A stretch of 64,000 bases of DNA from Bordetella parapertussis (GTDB lineage Bacteria; Pseudomonadota; Gammaproteobacteria; Burkholderiales; SG8-41). A program made the position numbers and the translations under genes. Where the stretch lies: positions 146,766-210,765 of the forward strand of contig CAMDRT010000003.1 of the NCBI GenBank assembly GCA_945906815.1, in the 5' to 3' direction. This document shows positions 35,770 through 47,723 of this stretch, one piece after another; positions within the stretch are counted from its first letter, which is position 1, and every line of letters begins with the position of its first letter. The notes under the pieces were generated by a model. The model saw only the letters and a program-made list of their open reading frames with translations, was not told the DNA's origin and made no database searches.

Positions 35770-37305
35770 TCAGTAACTCGTCGGCCAATTGCGCAGCAAA
35801 TGCTCGCCCACGCCGTTTTTCAGCCGCATGCGATGCACTTCCAGTGTGCGGATCAGGTAGTCGCGGGTGTCGCGCGGGTCGATCACATTTTGCGCTTCGT
35901 ATAGTTCCGCCAATCCCCAGGCGGAGGTGTCACGTTCGACTTCGGCCTTGAGTTTTTTGAAGCGCTCGGGGTCGTCCTCGAATTTCACGCCATACAGCAC
36001 GTTGACTGACACTGCCGGGTCCATGAACCCCAGATCTGCCATGGGCCAGCAGGCGATTTCATCGGCGTTTTTGCCGCCCGCCATGTTGATAAACGCCTGA
36101 CCGTAATTCTTGCGCATCATCACGGTAATTTTCGGCACAGTCACCAGCGTCATCGCGTTCATCCAGTTAATCACCTTGCCGGGCATGCCACGCAGTTCGC
36201 CCTCGACGCCGATCAAAAAGCCCGGCACATCGACCAGAAACACCAAGGGTATGTTGTACGAATCGCACAGCACCATGAAGCTGGTGACTTTGTTGCACGC
36301 ATCGGCGTCGAGTGCGCCACCCTTGTAGAGCGGATTGTTGGCGATGAAGCCCACGCTCTTGCCGTCGAGCCGCGCCAGCACGGTGGCGATGGATTTGCCG
36401 TAGCGCTCTTTCAACTCGAATGTCGAATCGGTATCCGCCACCGCTTTGATAATTTTGCGGACGTCGTACACCTGATTGCGCGACTCCGGCATTATGTCCA
36501 GTATGGTTTTAGCGGCTTCGTCGGAACCTGGGGGCACTGGCGCTTCAGGTGGCGGCGCCATGTGGTGACTGGGCAGATAAGATAGAAATTTCTTGATCGC
36601 GTCGAGACACTGCTCGTCAGTATCCACCGCCATATCGGCAAGGCCGGAAATGCCGGTCAGCAGCTTCCAGCCGCCCAACTCCTCTGCACTGATCGGTTTG
36701 TTGATCGCGATCGAGGTGACGTTGGGGCTGGCGATGGCCATGATCGCGCCCTTGCGCATGACCACGAAATCCGACATCGCCGAATACCAGGTCGATGAGC
36801 CGTAGCACTGGCCCAGCAGCGCGGAACACCACGGCGCTTCACGCAGGCGCTGATACTCGGTGGGATCCTGCGCGATGATGGCGCGGCCTGCGGCACCCAT
36901 GCGGTCGGGCATGCGCGCGCCGCTTGATTCGCCCAGCAACACCAGCGGCATGCCACGCCGGGTTGCGGTTTGCTTCACGTGTTTGATTTTTTTCATGTTG
37001 ATCACCGCGCTGGAGGCGCCCATCACGGTGAAGTCGTTCGACACCAGCCCCACTTCGCGGCCATGGATTTTGCCAAAGCCCGCGATTTTTCCATCCGCCG
37101 GCGTCTTGTGCTTGGCCTCGGGCCGGTTGCTGCGCGCGAAACGGCCGGACTCGATGAACGAGTCTTTATCCAGCAAATAGTCGATGCGCTGGCGCGCGTT
37201 GAGGTGCCCTTCGGCCTTGCGCTTGGCGAGTTTTTCCGGCCCACCCATGCCTGTGGCCTCAGCGGTTCTTGCCTGGAACTCCTGCATTAGTTTTTCAAAT
37301 GCCAC
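35770..37305 (-). CDS. Acyl-CoA carboxylase carboxyltransferase subunit
   Basis: Beta subunit of a biotin-dependent acyl-CoA carboxylase (propionyl-, methylcrotonyl- or geranyl-CoA type), 511 residues. Both crotonase-like halves are present: SSAVINMKKIKHVKQ and GESSGARMPDRMG in the N half, and the acyl-CoA loop VDVPGFLIGVEGE and KITVMMRKNYGQAFINMAG in the C half. It starts at GTG 37305 with AAGG upstream. No biotin carboxylase/carrier subunit is in the window, so it must pair with a protein encoded elsewhere or act as a decarboxylase component. It lies among Bug receptors and acyl-CoA dehydrogenase genes. Confidence 0.9.
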   Translation of the reverse strand: MAFEKLMQEFQARTAEATGMGGPEKLAKRKAEGHLNARQRIDYLLDKDSFIESGRFARSNRPEAKHKTPADGKIAGFGKIHGREVGLVSNDFTVMGASSAVINMKKIKHVKQTATRRGMPLVLLGESSGARMPDRMGAAGRAIIAQDPTEYQRLREAPWCSALLGQCYGSSTWYSAMSDFVVMRKGAIMAIASPNVTSIAINKPISAEELGGWKLLTGISGLADMAVDTDEQCLDAIKKFLSYLPSHHMAPPPEAPVPPGSDEAAKTILDIMPESRNQVYDVRKIIKAVADTDSTFELKERYGKSIATVLARLDGKSVGFIANNPLYKGGALDADACNKVTSFMVLCDSYNIPLVFLVDVPGFLIGVEGELRGMPGKVINWMNAMTLVTVPKITVMMRKNYGQAFINMAGGKNADEIACWPMADLGFMDPAVSVNVLYGVKFEDDPERFKKLKAEVERDTSAWGLAELYEAQNVIDPRDTRDYLIRTLEVHRMRLKNGVGEHLLRNWPTSY

Positions 37306-37355: not shown

Positions 37356-38324
37356 TCAATCGACGCGCGCACCTGTGGCCTTGACTACCTTGGCCCATTT
37401 TTCGAGTTCGGAATTCATGAGTTCGGCTGCCAGCGCAGGTGCGCCGTATTTGAGTGTAGCGCCGTGTGACAGCAATCGCGTGCGCACGGTGTTGTCTTCC
37501 AGCGACTTGTTTAACTCGGTGTTGAGCCGCGTGGTGATCGCGGCAGGCGTGCGCGCGGGCACCAGTATGCCCCACCATGAACTCGCCTCGAATCCGGGAT
37601 AACCGGATTCCGCAAACGTCGCCAGTTGCGGTGCGGCATCCGAGCGCTGCGCACTGCCGATGGCGATGCCGCGCAGTCGGCCGGAATCAAGGTGCGGCTT
37701 CATCGAGGTGATGGCGTCCACCACCAGCGGGATGAAGCCGGCCATCGCATCGATCATTGCCGGCCCCGCGCCCTTGTACGGTATATGCGTGAGGTCGGCC
37801 TTGGACGCGAGCTTGAACAACTCGGCGGCAAAATGGGAGGAAGTGCCGATGCCTGCAGTGCCGAAATTAAGCGTGCCGGCGCGCGCACGTGACAGCGCAG
37901 CCAGCTCTTTGGCATTGCGCGCCGGCAGCGACGGATGCGCGCCCAGCACCAGGGGTATCACCCCAATCAAACCCACATGCGCGAAATCCTTGGTGGTATC
38001 GTAGGAAAGCTTGGCATAGAGGCTATGATTGATCGCCTGCGTGGTATAGGTTTGAATATAGGCTGTGTAGCCATCGGCGGGCGCGGCTGCCACCAGTCCG
38101 GACGCGAGCGTCGTACCGGCGCCACCGCGAAAATCAATGATGAACTGCTGGCCGAGCAACTCGCCCATGCGCGGCGCGATGCTGCGCGACAAAAAATCTC
38201 CGGTGCCGCCGGGCGCGAACGGTACCACCATGCGGATGGGCTTGGTGGGGTAGGTCTGTGCGTGCGCCGACACGGCCAGCGCCAATACTACATTGCACAC
38301 TAAAATCTTCACCGTTTGTAACAT
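37356..38324 (-). CDS. Bug-family solute-binding protein 5
   Basis: Classic type, 322 residues, signal peptide ending AHAQ at about residue 23, then KPIRMVVPFAPGGTGDFLSR, RGGAGTTLASGLVAAAPADG and IPYKGAGPAMIDAMAG. GAGGGGAG precedes the ATG. The carboxyltransferase gene follows within 50 bases, so the two are probably cotranscribed. Confidence 0.88.
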   Translation of the reverse strand: MLQTVKILVCNVVLALAVSAHAQTYPTKPIRMVVPFAPGGTGDFLSRSIAPRMGELLGQQFIIDFRGGAGTTLASGLVAAAPADGYTAYIQTYTTQAINHSLYAKLSYDTTKDFAHVGLIGVIPLVLGAHPSLPARNAKELAALSRARAGTLNFGTAGIGTSSHFAAELFKLASKADLTHIPYKGAGPAMIDAMAGFIPLVVDAITSMKPHLDSGRLRGIAIGSAQRSDAAPQLATFAESGYPGFEASSWWGILVPARTPAAITTRLNTELNKSLEDNTVRTRLLSHGATLKYGAPALAAELMNSELEKWAKVVKATGARVD

Positions 38325-38461: not shown

Positions 38462-39610
38462 TTACGCATCCCGCAGCATATGCCGTGCGATCACCAATTG
38501 CTGGATCTGGCTGGTGCCTTCGAATATGCGGAACAGGCGCACGTCGCGATACAGGCGTTCAACGGCGTAATCCTGCATATAGCCCGCGCCGCCATGTATC
38601 TGCACCGCGCGATCGGCAACACGCCCCACCATTTCGGACGCAAACAATTTGCAGCACGACGCTTCCATCGTGATGTTGACGCCGGTGTCGCGCTTGCGCG
38701 CGGCTTCCAGCACCATGCTGCGTGCGGCGTAGATTTCGGTCTTGGAATCAGCGAGCATCGCCTGTATTAACTGAAACTCCGCGATCGGTCTGCCGAACTG
38801 CTTGCGCTCGCGCGCGTAATTCAATCCTTCATCGAGCAGGCGCTGCGCGATGCCGGTACACACCGAGGCAATGTTGAGCCGTGCGCGATCCAGCACCTTC
38901 ATCGCGGTTTTGAAGCCCATGCCCTCTTTGCCGCCGATGACATGCTCCGCCGGCACGCGCACGTTGTCGAAAATCACATCGGCGGTATGCGAGCCGCGCT
39001 GGCCCATCTTGCGGTCGGGCTTGCCGACAAAGAGACCCGGCGTATCGCGCTCGACGATGAATGCCGATACGCCGCTTGCGTCGTTGGTATGGGGATCGGT
39101 GCGCGCCATCAGGGTAAAAATGTGTGACTCGGGCGCGTTGGTGATGTAGCGCTTGGCGCCGTTCACCACATAGTGATTGCCCTCGCGCCGCGCGCTGGTG
39201 GTGAGCGACGCCGCATCCGAACCCGAGCCGGGCTCGGTTAGTGCGAACGCACCGATGATCTCGCCGGTAGCGAGCCGCGGCAGATACTTTTGCTTCTGCG
39301 CCTCGGTGCCGTCAATGACGATGCCCATGCCGCCAATGCCATTGTTGGTGCCCATGATCGAACGAAACACCGGCGACGCCTCGCACAACGCCATGCTGGT
39401 GAGCGCCTCTTCCTCCGTTGTGAGGCCCAGGCCGCCGTATTCTTCGGGAATGGTGAGCCCGAACAAACCCATGCGCCGCATCTCGCCCATGATGTCAGTG
39501 GGTATTTCATCAGTCTCGCTGACTTCACGCTCGCGCGGAATCAGTTTCTCGCGCACCAGGCGCGCGATGGTGTCGAGGAGGATTTGGAAGGAAGCGGGGT
39601 CGCGAATCAT
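38462..39610 (-). CDS. Acyl-CoA dehydrogenase
   Basis: A 382-residue short/medium-chain type enzyme. It shows FALTEPGSGSDAASL and KRYITNAP for FAD and substrate, DRARLNIASVCTGIAQ, and the catalytic glutamate Glu364 in FEGTSQIQQ. It is complete at both ends and 10 bases downstream of a Bug receptor gene, so both should be on one transcript. The dispersed repeat starts a few bases after its stop. Confidence 0.93.
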   Translation of the reverse strand: MIRDPASFQILLDTIARLVREKLIPREREVSETDEIPTDIMGEMRRMGLFGLTIPEEYGGLGLTTEEEALTSMALCEASPVFRSIMGTNNGIGGMGIVIDGTEAQKQKYLPRLATGEIIGAFALTEPGSGSDAASLTTSARREGNHYVVNGAKRYITNAPESHIFTLMARTDPHTNDASGVSAFIVERDTPGLFVGKPDRKMGQRGSHTADVIFDNVRVPAEHVIGGKEGMGFKTAMKVLDRARLNIASVCTGIAQRLLDEGLNYARERKQFGRPIAEFQLIQAMLADSKTEIYAARSMVLEAARKRDTGVNITMEASCCKLFASEMVGRVADRAVQIHGGAGYMQDYAVERLYRDVRLFRIFEGTSQIQQLVIARHMLRDA

Positions 39611-39620
39611 CGGCTATTTC

Positions 39621-40589
39621 TCACTGCAACTCCACATGCGCATCATGGATCACCTTAGCCCACTTCGCGATTTCGGATTTGATATGCGCCGAGAATTGTT
39701 GCGGCCGGTCGCCCACCGGTTCCGCGCCTAGGTTCAATAACCGTTCCTTCATGTCCGGCAGTTGCAGTATGCGCTGCGTCTCACCGGCCAGTTTGTCGAT
39801 CACCGGCTTGGGCGTGCCCGTGGGTGCAACCAGGCCAAACCACGCACTGGAGTTGTAGCCCGGCAAGCCGGATTCGGCGATGGTGGGCAGGTCGGGCATG
39901 GCGGGCGAGCGCCTGGCCGAGCTTACCGCGAGTGCGCGCAACTTGCCGGCCTTCACCTGCGGCAGATAGACCGGCAGGTTGTCGATGGTAGCGATGATCT
40001 GCCCGCCGATCACATCCGCCATCACCCCTGCGCTGCCTTTGTAGGGAATGTGCTGAATGGTGGTGCCGGTCGCGGTCTTGAGCATTTCCATCGACAGGTG
40101 CGCGGTGCTGCCGTTGCCGGGCGAGCCATAGTTGAGTTTGTTCGGGTTCGCTTTCAGGTGCACGATGAATTCCTTGACGCTTTTCACCGGCACGCTGTTG
40201 TTGACCACGAAGATGTTCGGCACCAGCGCCACCAGACTCACCGGTGCGAAATCTTTCGCCGCGTCCCACGGTAGCTTGCGATACAAGCCGGGATTGATGC
40301 CGTGCGTGCCCGCGGTCACCATCAGCAGCGTGTGGCCGTCGGGTGTGGCCTTGGCCGCGACATCGGTGCCGATGTTGCCGTTGGCCCCCGGACGGTTGTC
40401 GATGATGACGGGCTGTGACCATGCTTCGCTCATCTTCTGCCCGAGCGCGCGCGCAAGAATGTCGGTGGTACCGGCGGGTGTGTAGGCGACGATGATGCGG
40501 ATGGGTTTGCTTGGGTATGATTGCGCAAAGGCCGTGAGGGGCAGTGCGAAAATCAATGCTAAGTTGATGTTATTAAATGATATTTTCAT
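39621..40589 (-). CDS. Bug-family solute-binding protein 6
   Basis: Classic type, 322 residues with signal peptide ending AFAQ at about residue 23. Motifs are KPIRIIVAYTPAGTTDILAR, PGANGNIGTDVAAKATPDG and IPYKGSAGVMADVIGG. GGAG stands before the ATG. It is upstream of and probably cotranscribed with the acyl-CoA dehydrogenase, and separated by only 15 bases from the small unknown gene before it. Confidence 0.88.
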   Translation of the reverse strand: MKISFNNINLALIFALPLTAFAQSYPSKPIRIIVAYTPAGTTDILARALGQKMSEAWSQPVIIDNRPGANGNIGTDVAAKATPDGHTLLMVTAGTHGINPGLYRKLPWDAAKDFAPVSLVALVPNIFVVNNSVPVKSVKEFIVHLKANPNKLNYGSPGNGSTAHLSMEMLKTATGTTIQHIPYKGSAGVMADVIGGQIIATIDNLPVYLPQVKAGKLRALAVSSARRSPAMPDLPTIAESGLPGYNSSAWFGLVAPTGTPKPVIDKLAGETQRILQLPDMKERLLNLGAEPVGDRPQQFSAHIKSEIAKWAKVIHDAHVELQ

Positions 40590-40604: not shown

Positions 40605-40964
40605 TTATATAAAATTTCGGATGAACTCGTAATATGCCCGAGGCCCTGCTGTCGCATGGCGGTTCACCGAGCGTTTTATTTTGTCGACGCGATTGAGGTA
40701 TTCCTTCAGCGTGAGATCGTTCACTTTGCCGATACGCTCTTCGCCCACAAACACACACCAGGCAATGATGCCTTGCGCCAGCGGGTGGCTGGTAATTTTT
40801 TCGTTTTTGGCAAAGCCGCTGCGTTGTTTGAGCGCTGTCTTGCCCGCATCGAGCGCAAACACACACAGCTTATCGGTGAGATCGGGATGAAGTTCGTACT
40901 GTTCCTTAAGCCCCGCCTCAATGTTTTGACACACGTCGAGGTGTGCATCATCTTCTAGTGCCAC
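40605..40964 (-). CDS. Conserved small protein of unknown function
   Basis: A 119-residue soluble protein with no signal peptide and no recognised domain. The start is GTG 40964 with a textbook AGGAGG 7 bases upstream, so the gene is real. Its core includes FALDAGKTALKQRSGF, HPLAQGIIAWCVFVGEER and KVNDLTLKEYL, ending GPRAYYEFIRNFI. I recall similar uncharacterised proteins in Burkholderiales, but no function. It lies between Bug receptor genes inside the minus-strand catabolic stretch, which hints at a link but does not prove one. Confidence 0.75.
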   Translation of the reverse strand: MALEDDAHLDVCQNIEAGLKEQYELHPDLTDKLCVFALDAGKTALKQRSGFAKNEKITSHPLAQGIIAWCVFVGEERIGKVNDLTLKEYLNRVDKIKRSVNRHATAGPRAYYEFIRNFI

Positions 40965-41004: not shown

Positions 41005-42009
41005 TTATTCGCCTTTGATCCCTGCCGCTTTAATCACCTGCGCCCACTTGGCGATTTCGTTGTGGATGAACGCGGTGTATTGCTGCGGCGTGTTGCCCAC
41101 CGGATCAGCGCCCTGATCCTGCAGGCGTGCGCGCAGGTCGGGCAGGTTCACCGCGCGCACGATGCTGGCGTTGAGCTGCTCGATGATAACGCGTGGGGTC
41201 TTGGCGGGGGCGGCAATGCCGAACCACGAGGTCACATCAAATCCCGGAAGGCCGCTTTCCGCGAGCGTTGGTATGCCGGGCACCGCGGCAGTGCGCCGCA
41301 AACCGGATAACGCGATGGGCCGCAGCTTGGCGTTGCGCACATGCTGAATCGCCGCCGGTATGTTGGCGAAATAAAATGAAATCTCGCCGGAGAGCAGCGC
41401 CACCATGCCTGCGCCGCTGCCCCTGTACGGCACGTGCGACCACTGGACGCGGGTCATGTACTGAAATAGTTCCGCCGACAAGTGCGGCGTGCTGCCGACG
41501 CCGCTGGAGCCAAAATTGATTTCGCCGGGGCGCTGTTTGGAAAAGGCGATCAGTTCCTTGACGCTGCGCGGCGGAAACGACAAATGCTGCACCAGCAGGT
41601 TTTGCGATTCGGCCACCAGTGAAATAAAGGCGAAATCGCGCACCGAATCGTACTGCGGCTTGGCCAGCGCGGGGTTGGTGGCATGCGCGGGCGCATTCAG
41701 CAGTAGGGTGTAGCCATCGGGCGCGGCGCGCGCCACGTATTCCGTCGCGATCAGGGTGCTGGCGCCGCCGCGATTTTCCACCACCACCTGCTGACCGAGA
41801 AACTCCGCCATCTTCGGCGCCACCATGCGCGCAACGATATCGTTGGTGCCGCTAGGCGGGAAGCCGATGATGAAGCGGATCGGTTTGAGCGGATAGGCCG
41901 GTGCCGAGCCTGCCGCACCCGGCGTCTGCGCGTGCGCGCCGCCGCTCAGCAAACCGCAACTGGCCGCAACCCACCAGCACGTGCGGTTCAATCCCCCAAC
42001 CCTCACCAC
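41005..42009 (-). CDS. Bug-family solute-binding protein 7
   Basis: Classic type. The open frame runs to 42147 but that would overlap the preceding gene by 130 bases; GTG 42009 (or GTG 42006, TTG 41991) lies just after the upstream stop and yields a short signal peptide ending AHAQT. The core has KPIRFIIGFPPSGTNDIVAR, NRGGASTLIATEYVARAAPDG and VPYRGSGAGMVALLSG. It closely resembles the next gene, including the shared FPPxGTND and LNAPxHATNP segments and the identical tail KAAGIKGE, so the two are a tandem duplication. Confidence 0.85.
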   Translation of the reverse strand: MVRVGGLNRTCWWVAASCGLLSGGAHAQTPGAAGSAPAYPLKPIRFIIGFPPSGTNDIVARMVAPKMAEFLGQQVVVENRGGASTLIATEYVARAAPDGYTLLLNAPAHATNPALAKPQYDSVRDFAFISLVAESQNLLVQHLSFPPRSVKELIAFSKQRPGEINFGSSGVGSTPHLSAELFQYMTRVQWSHVPYRGSGAGMVALLSGEISFYFANIPAAIQHVRNAKLRPIALSGLRRTAAVPGIPTLAESGLPGFDVTSWFGIAAPAKTPRVIIEQLNASIVRAVNLPDLRARLQDQGADPVGNTPQQYTAFIHNEIAKWAQVIKAAGIKGE

Positions 42010-42016
42010 GGGTCCG

Positions 42017-42985
42017 TTACTCGCCCTTGATGCCCGCCGCCTTGAGCACTTTCGCCCACTTGGTAATTTCGTTCTGCACGTAAGCGGTGTTTTGTTCCGG
42101 CGTGTTGCCGATGGGGTCGGCGCCGAGATCCTTGAAGCGCGCCGCAAGGTCAGGTGATTTCAACGCGCGCAGGATCTCGCTGTTGAGGCGATCAATCAGC
42201 GGGCGCGGCGTCTTGGCCGGCGCAGAGACGCCGTACCAAGTCGTCACTTCATAGCCGGGAATGCCGCTTTCCGCCACTGTCGGCATTTCGGGAATCGCAC
42301 TCGAACGTTTGGCGCCCGTCACCGCAAGGCTGCGCAGCTTGCCCGTGCGCACGTAGCCGATGACCGACGGCACGTTGCCAAAATAAATGGAAAACTGTCC
42401 GCCCAGCATTTCGATCAGCGCCGGGCCAGCGCCCTTGTAGGGAATATGCACCCATTTCACCCCGGTCATGTACTCGAACAACGCGGCCGACAAATGCACC
42501 GTGGTGCCGACGCCCGAGGAGCCGTAGTTGATCTCACCCGGCCGTGCTTTCGAGAATGCGATCAGTTCCTTCACGCTGCGTGGCGGCAGCGACGGATGCG
42601 TCACCAACAGATTCTGCGATTCCGCTGCCACCGTGATAAACGCGAAGTCGCGTAGCGGGTCGAAGTTGAGCTTCATCATCGACGGATTGGTGGCGTGTCC
42701 CGGCGCGTTCAACATGATGTTGTAGCCGTCGGGCGCCATACGCACAAACATCTCGCTGGCGATCGCGGTGTTGGCGCCGCCGCGATTCTCGATCACAAAC
42801 TGCTGCCCCATTTGCTCGGTCAGTTTTTGCCCCAGTGCGCGCGCCACGATGTCGTTGGTGCCGCCGGGGGGGAAACCGACGATGAAGCGGATGGATTTCG
42901 TGGGATAGGTCTGTGCGTGGATGGCGCCACTGGACATCACTGCACATGCACCCACGACTGCCGCTACGATTTGCTGCTTGCTCAC
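42017..42985 (-). CDS. Bug-family solute-binding protein 8
   Basis: Classic type, 322 residues, GTG start with AAGGAA upstream and signal peptide ending IHAQ at about residue 25. It shows KSIRFIVGFPPGGTNDIVAR, ENRGGANTAIASEMFV, LNAPGHATNPSMMK and IPYKGAGPALIEMLGG. It begins 17 bases after the small aconitase X subunit, so this receptor and its tandem copy most probably import the substrate of the aconitase X enzyme. Confidence 0.88.
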   Translation of the reverse strand: MSKQQIVAAVVGACAVMSSGAIHAQTYPTKSIRFIVGFPPGGTNDIVARALGQKLTEQMGQQFVIENRGGANTAIASEMFVRMAPDGYNIMLNAPGHATNPSMMKLNFDPLRDFAFITVAAESQNLLVTHPSLPPRSVKELIAFSKARPGEINYGSSGVGTTVHLSAALFEYMTGVKWVHIPYKGAGPALIEMLGGQFSIYFGNVPSVIGYVRTGKLRSLAVTGAKRSSAIPEMPTVAESGIPGYEVTTWYGVSAPAKTPRPLIDRLNSEILRALKSPDLAARFKDLGADPIGNTPEQNTAYVQNEITKWAKVLKAAGIKGE

Positions 42986-43002: not shown

Positions 43003-43419
43003 TTAGACGCGTTTGACCACACTCACTGACTTACGCTGGGGGTCTACCCGCACAATATCGCCAGTCTTGATTACAGCATAGGGTAATTTTGACCAGCCCT
43101 CGGTAATGGTGATGCCGGCGAATACCGCGCCTTGCACCATCACCGGGTTGGTCACGCCAAACACAAACGCGCGCGGCGCGATGCCCTTGGCCTTGATGTC
43201 GTAGAACGCCCAACCGGCGGCGATGCCGCCTTTGGCGCTGGGTGTGATGTAGATGGCGTCCCTGATGTTGTGACCTTCGAGCGCGTGGCCTGGTCGTGAG
43301 ATGACGCCGCTCCAGCGGTCGAGGTCGTAGCGCGGACTGAAGCCTTCAGTGGAAATCAGCGCGACGCCTTCGACCACTTCGCCGAAAGCGCGTTTCACTT
43401 TGAACGCAACGCGATTCAT
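43003..43419 (-). CDS. Aconitase X small (swivel) subunit, DUF126
   Basis: A 138-residue partner of the large subunit, forming the swivel domain that closes over the active site of aconitase X dehydratases. The ATG at 43419 overlaps the large-subunit stop (ATGA); the longer open frame is not used. Segments ISRPGHALEGHNIRDAIYI and NPVMVQGAVFAGITITEGW fit the family. The usual serine-bearing loop (GRGSSSGS or GKGSTVGS in characterised members) reads AKGGIAAG at residues 62-69, so the conserved serine is replaced by Gly65. This places it outside the cis-3-hydroxyproline and mevalonate-phosphate dehydratase types known to me. Confidence 0.85.
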   Translation of the reverse strand: MNRVAFKVKRAFGEVVEGVALISTEGFSPRYDLDRWSGVISRPGHALEGHNIRDAIYITPSAKGGIAAGWAFYDIKAKGIAPRAFVFGVTNPVMVQGAVFAGITITEGWSKLPYAVIKTGDIVRVDPQRKSVSVVKRV

Positions 43420-44660
43420 GCGGCGTCTTGGCCGGTGCAGGCAATGTCCACGCAAGCTGCGGTACGACGCAAAATGGCGTTGAACTTGTGCGCACCGATG
43501 ATATTGACCAACTTGGCGGAGTTGGTCACCAGATTGCTCCAGCCGTTTTGCACGCGCATCTGCGCGATGTTTTGCAGAATATAAAAGCACACGCCTTCGA
43601 GCACGAGGGCGCCGGACTTTTGTATGGTGTCGAGGTAACCGAGTTTATGGGCGGCGCTTTTCACGCCGTTGCTGGTGGTGATGTAAAGCTGGCTGCCTGG
43701 CGCGAGTTTGCGTCCGTCGAGCAATTCGGCGAGCCGCTTCATTTCAAACAGCGATTGTTGCGGCCCCGAGAACACCACCAGATTCAGCGGATTGCCGTGT
43801 GTGGCATAGCTGGCGTAAACGCGTTCGAGGTCCCGATTGGTGATAGTCATGACTTCTTTCGGCTTGCGCCCGCCGAAAGCCACTTTGAGCGTGGGCGCTT
43901 CGGGGGTGACGCCGACCATGTGAAACATGCCGATCGAGCCGTAGCTCGCGAGCGCACAGGCGAGTTGCTTCAATTCATCGGATGTGGGCGTGCGTTTCAC
44001 GCCGTTGAATACCGGCACCGCGTAGTAATCCTGATGGCCGGCGCCCACCAGCTTGCCCAGTGCGCCCCAATCGGCAAGATCCTGGAGATCGGCTTTGATA
44101 TTGACCTGAAACACGCCTTTGCGCCGGGCGTCGAGGTGATAGCCGTACTCCGGCACGCGGCCGGTAAGTGCCGCCGCCAGTGCCGCCGGCCCGGCTTCAA
44201 AATTGCTGCGCGCACCAAACACCGAGTTGGCGTAATTCACCGTGCCGGTGTCACCCCACGCGACGTGTTCGCCCAGATGCGGCTGGTAAATCGTCTGGTA
44301 ATTGATGCAGGTGTCGGCAGTAACGACATTCATGCGCTGCAAATACGCGATGAGCTGTTTTTCCTTGCGCGCCTCGTTGGGATCCTGCTTTAACTGCGCG
44401 ACATAATCGAAATCGATGCAGCGCGCGTTAGTGGTGGTCGGTGTCACGCAACGCGCGCCGGCGTTCGCGACACGTTCGACAAAGGCTTTGCCCGAATCGC
44501 CCATGACTTCGATGTCACCCATCATGTGCACATTGGTGACCGGCACGAAGCGTTTGGCGCCGAAGAATTTGCCGACTTCCAGTTGCAGCGCGAGCGCATC
44601 TTTCGCGGCGGCACCCATGTCGCCTTTGAGTATGCGTTTTTCTTCAGCGCTAAGTAGCAT
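43416..44660 (-). CDS. Aconitase X large (catalytic) subunit, DUF521
   Basis: A 414-residue iron-sulfur dehydratase subunit. It carries NVHMMGDIEVMGDSGKAF, then TADTCINYQTI, and the family block AWGDTGTVNYANSVFGAR followed by SNFEAGP. Cys118, Cys358 (EGVCFYIL) and Cys403 (ACVDIACTG) are the likely cluster ligands by position. Characterised aconitase X enzymes dehydrate cis-3-hydroxy-L-proline in bacteria or phosphomevalonate in archaea. Here the partner genes (amidohydrolase upstream, DUF126 and two Bug receptors downstream) suggest a different carboxylate. The start ATG is at 44660. Confidence 0.88.
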   Translation of the reverse strand: MLLSAEEKRILKGDMGAAAKDALALQLEVGKFFGAKRFVPVTNVHMMGDIEVMGDSGKAFVERVANAGARCVTPTTTNARCIDFDYVAQLKQDPNEARKEKQLIAYLQRMNVVTADTCINYQTIYQPHLGEHVAWGDTGTVNYANSVFGARSNFEAGPAALAAALTGRVPEYGYHLDARRKGVFQVNIKADLQDLADWGALGKLVGAGHQDYYAVPVFNGVKRTPTSDELKQLACALASYGSIGMFHMVGVTPEAPTLKVAFGGRKPKEVMTITNRDLERVYASYATHGNPLNLVVFSGPQQSLFEMKRLAELLDGRKLAPGSQLYITTSNGVKSAAHKLGYLDTIQKSGALVLEGVCFYILQNIAQMRVQNGWSNLVTNSAKLVNIIGAHKFNAILRRTAACVDIACTGQDAA

Positions 44661-44751
44661 AGTAACGTTTTGTTTTAAAAGGATATTTTATGTTTTACTG
44701 GGTCGCTGCCATCGCCATGATCTTCGTATTCACATGCAGTGGGCTTTACGT

Positions 44752-44768
44752 GTTCACCCGTTCACGTT
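44752..44768. repeat. Short copy of the GTTCACCC motif
   Basis: GTGTTCACCCGTTCACG in the 109-base gap between the aconitase X large subunit and the amidohydrolase, related to the octamer array at 35720. Confidence 0.45.
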
Positions 44769-44769
44769 G

Positions 44770-46119
44770 TTACAAGTAATCAATTTTCTTCCAGTCGCCC
44801 GGATTGACGTTTACCACATGCTTGCTGCGGCCGGCACGCCGGTCGGCATAAATGCGGCCTTCCTTCATGACCATCTGAATGTTCTTTTTTTCCTGCAGCA
44901 GCGCGATGTTTTTCAGCGGGTCGCCCTTGACCGCGATGATGTCGGCGAGTTTACCGGCCTCCACGGTGCCGAGTTCTTTTTCCATTTTCAGCGCGTGCGC
45001 GGCGTTGCGTGTGGCGGTGAGAATCGCATCCATCGGCTTCATGCCGAGGCTGACGTAAATCGCCAACTCGCGCGCGTTGGTGCCCATTTCCGGATCGAAC
45101 CCCATATCCGTGCCCATCGCAATCTTGACGCCGGCTTTGTGCATTTTTTGAAATGTGTCGAAGCAGTACGGCTGCAAGGCCTTCATTTTATTGATGACAA
45201 ACTGCGAGGTGCCCTGATCGAGGCGGTTCTGGATGGCGTGATCGGTGCGGTGCAGTAGCGTGGGCGTCATCCACACGTTGGCGTCGGCAATCCTGTCGAT
45301 GACTTCTGCGTCGTGAAACACCATATGCTCGATCGTGTCGGCGCCCGCCGCCAGCGCCATGCGCTGCCCGCCCGGCGTGAAACAGTGTACTGCCGCCGCT
45401 TTGTGAAAGGCATGGGCTTCATCGACGATGGCGTCGATTTCTTCCTGTGTCATATTGCGGATGTCGGGCTCTTCCTTGTCGGTGCCGCCGCCACCGGTGG
45501 CGCAGGTCTTCACGATGTCGCAACCCGCCAGCAGATTGGTGCGCGCGAGTTTGCGCAATTCCCAGGGGCCGTCGGCGGTCTGAAAGCCGAGGCGCTGCGC
45601 TGCGCGCGGCTGAATCAGATCCAGATGTGAACCGGTGATGGTGGTAAAGCCGCCGATGAACATGCGCGGGCCTTCGATGATGCCGGCGTTGATCGAATCG
45701 CGCACCGCGCACAGATGCGCGGTGAGCAGCCCGCGATAGGAATTGAGCCCCAGATCGCGCAGCGTGGTAAAGCCCATATCAAAGCACAACTGCGCATGGA
45801 ATAAGCCATACATCTGCTGCAATTCAGGCGTGATTTCCCACTGTGCAACGCGATAATTGTGAAAGGTCAGGCAGTTGAACATCATGGTGTGCAGATGCAC
45901 GTCCATCAGACCGGGCATCAGCGTGAGCCCGGCGCAATCGATGACTTCGGCGCGGGCGGGAATTTTCACCGTGGTCCTGGTGCCCACCTGCTTGATGCGG
46001 CGGCCCTGCAGCACGATCACGGGATCTTTCACCGGCGTGCCGCCGTTGCCGTCAATCAGCGTCGCGCCTTGGATGACTTTGAGGGGCCCTTTTTCCGCAG
46101 GCACTTTCATTTCAAACAT
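44770..46119 (-). CDS. Metal-dependent amidohydrolase (prolidase/imidazolonepropionase-like)
   Basis: A 449-residue TIM-barrel hydrolase of cyclic amides or peptides, cytoplasmic. Metal ligands are His75 and His77 (MDVHLHT), Lys204 (DIVKTCATGG, likely carbamylated), His245 (AVHCFTPGG), His265 and Asp338 (GTDMGFD). The ATG at 46119 is preferred; ATG 46110 and 46146 are alternatives and none has a good Shine-Dalgarno. It is the first gene of the minus-strand aconitase X unit, 109 bases ahead, so it may form or consume the substrate of the dehydratase. Its first eight codons and upstream region are duplicated at 47.6 kb. Confidence 0.85.
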   Translation of the reverse strand: MFEMKVPAEKGPLKVIQGATLIDGNGGTPVKDPVIVLQGRRIKQVGTRTTVKIPARAEVIDCAGLTLMPGLMDVHLHTMMFNCLTFHNYRVAQWEITPELQQMYGLFHAQLCFDMGFTTLRDLGLNSYRGLLTAHLCAVRDSINAGIIEGPRMFIGGFTTITGSHLDLIQPRAAQRLGFQTADGPWELRKLARTNLLAGCDIVKTCATGGGGTDKEEPDIRNMTQEEIDAIVDEAHAFHKAAAVHCFTPGGQRMALAAGADTIEHMVFHDAEVIDRIADANVWMTPTLLHRTDHAIQNRLDQGTSQFVINKMKALQPYCFDTFQKMHKAGVKIAMGTDMGFDPEMGTNARELAIYVSLGMKPMDAILTATRNAAHALKMEKELGTVEAGKLADIIAVKGDPLKNIALLQEKKNIQMVMKEGRIYADRRAGRSKHVVNVNPGDWKKIDYL

Positions 46120-46207
46120 GAGGGGAAATCCCGCTAAAAATGCCATTGCGCAAGGCGCGGATGGCGTCACCCACGGTAGTAAATCGCTGCGGCATTGTCA
46201 AGCTGAA
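46095..46207. repeat. 113-base direct repeat, copy 1
   Basis: Covers codons 1-8 of the amidohydrolase and about 90 bases upstream. It matches 47611-47723 at 108 of 113 positions with no gaps. Confidence 0.95.
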
Positions 46208-46822: not shown

Positions 46823-47206
46823 ATGAGACGCGTTTTTAAGATCCGCTACTTCGCTCGCTGGATGCGCAAGACTGATCTCAGTGACGAGACGCTCTGCTCT
46901 GCAGTTATCGAAATGACTCAAGGGTTGATCGATGCTGATCTGGGCGGCGGGATCGTCAAAAAACGGGTGGGGCTTTCCGGCCGCGGTAAACGGGGTGGAG
47001 CCAGAACTCTAGTTGCGACCAACAAGGGAAATCGATGGTTTTTTGTATACGGTTTTGAAAAAAATTACCGTGCAAACATATCGGATGATGAGCTGGAAGC
47101 GTTGAAAGACATTGCCGAGCAGCTATTGGCGAGAACTGGTAAACAACTGGACGTAGCCTTGAATGATGGGTCCTTAACGGAGATATGCCATGACCAAAAA
47201 ATCTAA
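46823..47206 (+). CDS. RelE/ParE-superfamily toxin
   Basis: A 127-residue toxin of the group often annotated RelE-like (PF06296). The fold core is FKIRYFARWMRKTDLSDE, then LGGGIVKKRVGLSGRGKRGG followed by ARTLVATNKG and RWFFVYGFEKN. The basic GRGKRGGAR loop is typical of RNA-binding toxins. It is the first gene of a two-gene operon; its end overlaps the antitoxin start by 17 bases. AT content is higher than in neighbouring genes, which fits recent arrival. Confidence 0.88.
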   Translation: MRRVFKIRYFARWMRKTDLSDETLCSAVIEMTQGLIDADLGGGIVKKRVGLSGRGKRGGARTLVATNKGNRWFFVYGFEKNYRANISDDELEALKDIAEQLLARTGKQLDVALNDGSLTEICHDQKI

Positions 47207-47513
47207 GGCCAAGAGCCTCATTTTTAAAGCTGTCCATGAAACAGCAAGCGATCTTCATCGTCTCGGCTTTATCGATAAGCGAAAAATGCGCAAATTTAAT
47301 GTGCTTTGCCTAGATCCCATCCCCGCATATGATTGCGAAAAAATTCGCGCCCTAAGGGACCACCTTCAGTTAAGCCAAGCCGTTTTAGCTTCGGTGTTGA
47401 ACACCAGTCTATCAACAGTACGCAAGTGGGAAGTGGGCGACAAGCATCCTAGTGGCCCCTCGCTGAAGTTGCTTAACCTGCTGGATCGCAAAGGCCTTGA
47501 GGCAGTAATTTAA
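47190..47513 (+). CDS. HTH antitoxin partner
   Basis: A 107-residue protein with a C-terminal Xre-type HTH (LRDHLQLSQAVLASVLNTSL, then STVRKWEVGDKHPSG), the usual antitoxin of this toxin group, and a basic N-terminal part (MTKKSKAKSLIFK) that probably wraps the toxin. It overlaps the toxin gene by 17 bases in another frame, so the two are translationally coupled. It should repress the promoter at 46788 through the palindrome there. Confidence 0.88.
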   Translation: MTKKSKAKSLIFKAVHETASDLHRLGFIDKRKMRKFNVLCLDPIPAYDCEKIRALRDHLQLSQAVLASVLNTSLSTVRKWEVGDKHPSGPSLKLLNLLDRKGLEAVI

Positions 47514-47610: not shown

Positions 47611-47723
47611 CCGCGGGCGCTTTCATTTCAAACATGAGGGGAAATCCCGGTAAAAATGCCATCGCGCAAGGCGCGGATGGCGTCACCCACGGTAGTAAAT
47701 CGCTGCTGCATTGTCAAGCTGAA
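47611..47723. repeat. 113-base direct repeat, copy 2
   Basis: Near-identical to 46095-46207 in the same orientation. The amidohydrolase start is copied but the frame reaches a stop soon after codon 8, so no protein is made. It lies in the 294-base gap between the antitoxin and ptsI, which otherwise shows nothing. Confidence 0.95.

Follow-up and report, generated by a model that had tools for sequence, protein, structure and literature searches.

The window analyzed here comprises 64,000 nucleotides of an assembly titled Bordetella parapertussis (GCA_945906815.1, contig CAMDRT010000003.1, positions 146,766 to 210,765), and contains a compact run of minus-strand genes, encoding in this order an amidohydrolase, the large and the small subunit of an aconitase X (AcnX) and two Bug receptors. 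This gene content, initially read from the sequence in what we call the original prediction, was borne out by Pfam searches, and the run extends past the second Bug gene through an open reading frame (ORF), a third Bug gene, an acyl-CoA dehydrogenase, a fourth Bug gene and a carboxyltransferase, as far as position 35770 (Table 1). Both AcnX domains score well above their curated cut-offs (381.7 vs. 31.5 bits for PF04412, 68.7 vs. 27 bits for PF01989), and only one large-subunit match is found in the source genome. The start of the small-subunit gene, set at 43419, overlaps the large-subunit stop by ATGA; a 195-aa ORF was rejected as the small subunit.

The small subunit lacks the serine loop of known AcnX enzymes. 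Its loop AKGGIAAG, at residues 62-69 of the full-length protein (the aligned window row began at residue 7), corresponds to GKGSTVGS in TkAcnX and SRGSCTGS in AtAcnX, and Gly65 aligns with their catalytic serine, taking the place of the general base, Ser62(S) in TkAcnX and Ser70 in AtAcnX. The serine loss is real and not confined to one strain. Besides the window, the comparison covered 77 loci on contigs of public genomes, from a search for close relatives that retained the best 80 of 82, further AcnX from class and phylum samples (one of them limited to its 30 best out of 44 matches), and seven loci taken from 160 plasmid records with a match; L001 and L085 were excluded as copies of the window. 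Once 4 of 121 large subunits and 1 of 113 small subunits had been dropped as fragments, shorter than 300 and 80 aa, respectively, the first alignment held 117 large and 112 small subunits, plus TkAcnX and AtAcnX, through whose crystal structures residues were read. In this alignment the base position is Gly in 74 and Ser in 40 of the 114 small-subunit rows. Addition of 46 loci from an order search and its follow-up brought the rows to 160, of which 118 feature Gly and 42 Ser, with no other residue; as some loci are the same contig, the 118 Gly rows hold only 106 distinct sequences. A strain-specific mutation or a frameshift was rejected as the origin of the loss, the loop being common to the whole class and the frames intact.

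The sequences carrying this loop, hereafter the KGG class, share further changes. At the position of Glu129-Ser130-Ser131 of TkAcnX, Asp-Thr-Gly is found in 79 of 119 large subunits, the window included (Asp137 to Gly139), while Glu and Ser are retained in the other 40. The two subunits co-vary: Gly is paired with the large-subunit Asp in 115 loci and Ser with Glu in 42, and mixed pairs are never found. In the Trp/Leu-Gly-Gly substrate loop, the position of Trp35 of AtAcnX and Leu27 of TkAcnX, Arg30 in the window, is Arg in 115 of the 118 Gly rows, the remaining three being gaps, and in none of the 42 Ser rows. Arg30-Tyr31-Asp32 of the small subunit and Asp49 of the large one were gained in the class and are near-invariant. 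As aligned, the Ser to Gly, Glu to Asp, Trp/Leu to Arg and amine-binding Asp to Met changes are linked across the class, which looks like a separate enzyme type, given that over 100 relatives carry the same replacement.

Phylogeny points the same way. When 119 large subunits were placed in a maximum-likelihood tree, a branch of length 1.39, with a Shimodaira-Hasegawa-like approximate likelihood ratio (SH-aLRT) support of 100, had all 79 class members on one side; the AKGG sequences thus make up a group of their own, apart from hydroxyproline and phosphomevalonate dehydratases. The tree was built by a quick method with SH-aLRT support only, its midpoint root serves drawing only, and the nearest neighbour of the class is not settled, because long branches meet, those of TkAcnX and the KGG class among them. 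Structure models agree with the crystallized AcnX fold for both subunits: the large-subunit model, with a predicted local distance difference test (pLDDT) score of 91.3, is nearest to 7cnr_A (TM-score 0.90 by target and 0.84 by query length), the small-subunit one (pLDDT 95.4) to 7cnr_D (0.91 and 0.86). In one pairwise comparison, against locus L003, ratios of nonsynonymous to synonymous substitution of 0.11 for the large subunit, 0.13 for the small one and 0.07 for the amidohydrolase indicate purifying selection.

The class is large and mainly beta-proteobacterial, and contig titles indicate that its bacteria are known for the most part from environmental genomes, those of lakes and groundwater among them. 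Within the same order, 399 genomes were sampled, and 39 of them match the small-subunit profile at E values of 1e-6 or lower, in 43 places. The Gly loop is found in all 30 best loci (30 genomes) and in three further genomes, hence in at least 33 of 399, source genome included; L171 and L172 are serine types, and the eight remaining matches were left out of the loop count. In three genomes of the same genus (L163-L165) the match falls in another branch of the class, with an AKGGVAT loop; TctA/TctB genes lie about 5 kb from AcnX in L164, and a galactarate/altronate dehydratase gene lies nearby in L163. The AcnX of metagenome-assembled contigs titled Bordetella parapertussis (L002, L003, L019, L049, L066) groups with that of uncultured Burkholderiales and Betaproteobacteria, and these titles look like a naming error.

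According to passages of PMC8184944, aconitase is accepted to use a serine alkoxide as its general base, the same role is proposed for such an alkoxide in AcnX, and the Ser70Ala variant of AtAcnX is almost inactive. The same passages assign to Glu292 of AtAcnX the role of Asp165 of mitochondrial aconitase, whose residue type is restored by Asp137 of the window. This glutamate is described in a passage of PMC10040528 as highly conserved among all AcnX, a statement to which the KGG class, with Asp in its place, is an exception. Other catalytic residues are kept throughout the class: Cys118, equivalent to Cys110 of TkAcnX and Cys273 of AtAcnX, in 79 of 79 sequences; Cys358, equivalent to Cys342 of TkAcnX, in 77 of 77; and Lys383, equivalent to Lys361 and Lys530 of the two proteins, in 76 of 76. 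Thr138 retains a hydroxyl at the carboxylate site. The third TkAcnX cysteine, at position 283, is replaced by Gly in the window and by Gly or Ala across the class; in a pairwise alignment, Tyr360 of the large subunit falls opposite the cysteine that is the third cluster ligand of AtAcnX, whereas the multiple alignments place their gaps there otherwise. Except for the serine, the parts for a cluster-assisted dehydration are all there.

In line with the original prediction, neither known AcnX substrate is likely. With type IIb phosphomevalonate dehydratases (TkAcnX, 7CNR/7CNS, and ApPMDh) the window pair shares the two-subunit architecture, both folds and the equivalents of Cys110, Cys342 and Lys361, and Gly48 and Asn79 of the TkAcnX phosphate site are kept. 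In contrast, Val49, Ser50 and Asn53 of that site are changed, Ser62 and Thr63 are replaced by Gly65 and Ile66, Glu129 by Asp and Leu27 by Arg, and Cys283 is missing; this function was rejected on the absence of the third cysteine and of the serine base. Hydroxyproline dehydratases belong to the same family, but their base serine, amine-binding Asp203 (Met47 in the window) and ring-packing Trp35 are all replaced, and the window pair, unlike them, sits outside any hydroxyproline cluster. Bacterial heterodimeric AcnX of types IIc-IIf, of unknown function, were recognized in PMC8184944 (2021) and PMC10040528 (2023): according to the main text, they too lack the residues that mark the two known enzymes, and, judged by this text description, the KGG class very probably falls within them. 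The passages of the two papers make no mention of a serine loss in these types, and no report of the linked serine loss and Asp, or of an amidohydrolase-cupin-AcnX cluster, was found in the literature searched, which included few subscription papers.

The gene order around AcnX is conserved beyond a single strain, with an additional member. Gene calls in relatives are based on ORF heuristics. Among 28 close relatives, whose large subunits are 74-96% identical to that of the window (clade A), 20 feature the order amidohydrolase-cupin-AcnX (only the amidohydrolase end is present in L002); in L021 the cupin is present but no amidohydrolase, in five a TctA gene lies directly upstream instead, and the contigs of the last two do not include the upstream region. 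The cupin, about 160-180 aa long and located between the amidohydrolase and the large subunit, is missing from the window, where the gap between these genes is 109 bp vs. about 620 bp in relatives; the unit as first described thus lacked a component. Relocation of the cupin within the source genome was rejected, the best other cupin being only 38% identical. Twenty of the 28 relatives have the acyl-CoA dehydrogenase, and 20 the carboxyltransferase, some contigs ending early; carboxyltransferase orthologues match mmdA below its cut-off.

The amidohydrolase was scanned as an ORF spanning 44770-46170, its start at 46119 being taken from relatives. It belongs with Xaa-Pro dipeptidase/arginine carboxypeptidase amidohydrolases, presumably those labelled COG1228, whose family and motifs it shares; its best NCBIfam match, Xaa-Pro dipeptidase NF051886, reaches 305.3 bits, under the cut-off of 500. 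The motifs HxH, K, H, H and D, which we take to be the metal ligands of the superfamily, align with those of its PDB relatives 2qs8 and 3mtw (Cc2672). A 113-bp direct repeat, 96% identical in its two copies (46095-46207 and 47611-47723, 1516 bp apart), spans the start of this gene. Between the copies lie, on the plus strand, a RelE toxin gene (46823-47206) and a gene resembling a helix-turn-helix antitoxin (47190-47513); upstream of the cluster, a toxin-antitoxin pair seems to have been inserted or duplicated.

Across the class, neighbourhoods were compared by counting hits of at least 30% identity over at least half of the query in 82 loci spanning 6 kb or more, some few of them recognized through a partial large subunit only. 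Nineteen of these loci have a close amidohydrolase and 20 the cupin, always within clade A. Other neighbours include a GntR regulator (13 loci, in both main branches), ferredoxin (10), an aldehyde dehydrogenase of the succinate-semialdehyde dehydrogenase-like (SSADH-like) type (9), sulfatase (9), dihydrodipicolinate synthase (DHDPS; 6), a sodium:sulfate-symporter/citrate-transporter gene (6), amidase (6) and oxaloacetate-decarboxylase-type genes (4). Attempts to deduce a substrate from these neighbourhoods led nowhere, as AcnX partners vary: depending on the sub-clade, they are the SSADH-like dehydrogenase, a choline-sulfatase-like sulfatase, ferredoxin, genes of the oxaloacetate-decarboxylase type, or a combination of amidase, Gfo/Idh oxidoreductase and DHDPS. 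By eye, a small ferredoxin-like gene was seen just upstream of the large subunit in one branch (L032, L035, L040, L047, L053, L055, L057, L068, L069, L071, L077), where it perhaps serves cluster repair or assembly.

The proposal that the Bug receptors are the cluster's own is a weak one. The source genome (4.77 Mb) holds at least 150 Bug/TctC genes (150 scored of 426 candidates) vs. five TctA permeases, a strong expansion of orphan receptors, and none of the five TctA genes lies on the window's contig, where the combination of Bug with TctA/TctB expected of a tripartite tricarboxylate transporter locus is absent. Bug genes occur in 51 of the 82 class loci, and in most clade-A relatives the Bug directly after AcnX finds its best match in the third Bug of the window. 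Bug genes being so abundant, and TctA genes so few, a stronger transport link is provided by the TctA genes that neighbour AcnX in clade A, accompanied by TctB in the three loci whose contigs extend that far, and by TctA/TctB in two Aromatoleum. Other carboxylate-transport genes beside class members are of the sodium:sulfate-symporter/citrate-transporter type, of the sugar-transporter family of the major facilitator superfamily, and DctM.

Table 1. Features of the AcnX locus, in window positions (Bug, receptor of the Bug/TctC type).
Feature	Position	Strand	Basis
Carboxyltransferase (methylmalonyl-CoA decarboxylase/acyl-CoA carboxylase type)	35770..37305	-	PF01039
Fourth Bug	37356..38324	-	Pfam scan
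Acyl-CoA dehydrogenase	38462..39610	-	PF00441/02770/02771
Third Bug	39621..40589	-	Pfam scan
119-aa ORF, no Pfam match	40605..40964	-	Pfam scan
Second Bug; true start probably within ORF	41005..42147	-	PF03401, E 2.5e-70
Bug immediately downstream of AcnX	42017..42985	-	PF03401, E 8.5e-67
AcnX small (swivel) subunit, 138 aa	43003..43419	-	PF01989, E 4e-19
Loop AKGGIAAG, small-subunit residues 62-69	43213..43236	-	Alignment
Arg30-Tyr31-Asp32, small subunit	43324..43332	-	Alignment
AcnX large subunit, 414 aa	43416..44660	-	PF04412, E 4.6e-114, full length
Lys383, large subunit	43512..43514	-	Alignment
Cys358, large subunit, cluster ligand equivalent	43587..43589	-	Alignment
Asp137-Thr138-Gly139, large subunit	44244..44252	-	Alignment
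Cys118, large subunit, cluster ligand equivalent	44307..44309	-	Alignment
109-bp gap at cupin position of relatives	44661..44769	-	Comparison with relatives
Amidohydrolase, Xaa-Pro-dipeptidase/arginine-carboxypeptidase-like, 449 aa	44770..46119	-	PF01979, E 3.3e-39

From the residues kept, we infer that the pair may be an active iron-sulfur hydro-lyase (dehydratase or hydratase), the two ligand cysteines making it a candidate for cluster binding. The carboxylate of the substrate would be held by Thr138 and Lys383, and its hydroxyl would bind the open iron and be handled by Asp137, playing the part of Asp165 of mitochondrial aconitase, and by Lys383. A base other than serine would take the proton, the simplest candidates being Tyr31 and Asp32 in the Arg-Tyr-Asp loop, and Arg30 would hold a second acidic group. 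As substrate we predict a small hydroxy-carboxylate that is imported and probably carries two carboxylates; cis-3-hydroxyproline and phosphomevalonate are unlikely, and the cyclic amide or acylated hydroxy acid originally suggested is a guess. In the window's sub-clade, the amidohydrolase, along with the cupin in relatives, would free the acid from an amide or a peptide, a plausible role, and the acyl-CoA dehydrogenase and the carboxyltransferase would act further down the route. That the pair is an iron-sulfur hydro-lyase using a non-serine base on an imported carboxylate, fed in clade A by the amidohydrolase, has in our opinion about an even chance of being correct. A more detailed version, in which the subfamily swapped the serine alkoxide for a Tyr/Asp base, rebuilt its pocket (two cysteines, Asp, possibly Tyr360) and dehydrates an imported dicarboxylate, one lineage being fed by amidohydrolase and cupin, is put forward only tentatively.

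Several observations weigh against this proposal. The near inactivity of AtAcnX Ser70Ala, in the passage cited above, means that the serine loss could signify a different chemistry, or none, and the candidates for the new base come from sequence alignment only. AcnX neighbourhoods differ strongly from sub-clade to sub-clade, so that one shared substrate is not assured, and adjacency to Bug genes is weak evidence, saying little in so Bug-rich a genome. The uptake-hydrolysis-dehydration route envisaged by the original prediction is therefore only partly supported: the distinct AcnX class and the conserved order stand, while the amidohydrolase orthologue is limited to a sub-clade, the cupin is missing, and Bug genes are abundant. 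In particular, the amidohydrolase, found in a single sub-clade and replaced by TctA in five relatives, cannot define the AcnX reaction.

It is quite possible, if somewhat short of an even chance, that AcnX acts on a carboxylate and that the amidohydrolase-cupin pair is a mere neighbour serving another pathway. Besides the restriction of the close pair to clade A and the five TctA loci, this would suit the window itself, which retains the amidohydrolase yet lacks the cupin; the tight same-strand order in 20 of 28 relatives argues for a functional connection. A different chemistry on the same scaffold, that of a lyase, isomerase or epimerase needing no serine-type abstraction of an alpha proton, seems unlikely, though not negligible. 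The serine is gone in all 115 loci with the class Asp, alongside the other active-site changes, and neighbours of the DHDPS, SSADH-like, galactarate-dehydratase and biotin-carboxylase types would fit several reactions; against it, the two cysteines, the lysine, the acid for the cluster water and the carboxylate-site hydroxyl, all parts of a dehydration, are kept.

Release of hydroxyproline from peptides by the Xaa-Pro-dipeptidase-like amidohydrolase is suggested by its best NCBIfam match, although below cut-off, and by a passage of PMC8184944 according to which type IIa hydroxyproline dehydratases, too, potentially have two cluster cysteines only. What still speaks most for a proline-type substrate is L033, a locus outside clade A, where a proline racemase and a distant relative (28% identical) of the amidohydrolase lie nearby. 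However, no proline racemase was found in the 19 close-amidohydrolase loci at the 30% identity threshold, the hydroxyproline-dehydratase model scores 211 vs. a cut-off of 700, and residues, model score and tree together led us to reject this function for AcnX; the idea as a whole is very improbable. Least probable of all, and scarcely to be expected, is a catalytically dead pair retained for binding or regulation: the lost base, and the nearly inactive alanine variant of AtAcnX, would agree with it, but the cluster cysteines and the lysine are invariant in the class, which a dead enzyme need not keep, and substitution ratios are low in the pair compared.

With its serine lost alongside a fixed set of other active-site changes, and its cluster cysteines and lysine retained, the well-populated KGG class offers a concrete test of the need for serine in the AcnX scaffold. 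The class also supplies clear signature residues for part of types IIc-IIf, and points to an uncharacterized carboxylate catabolism in environmental bacteria.

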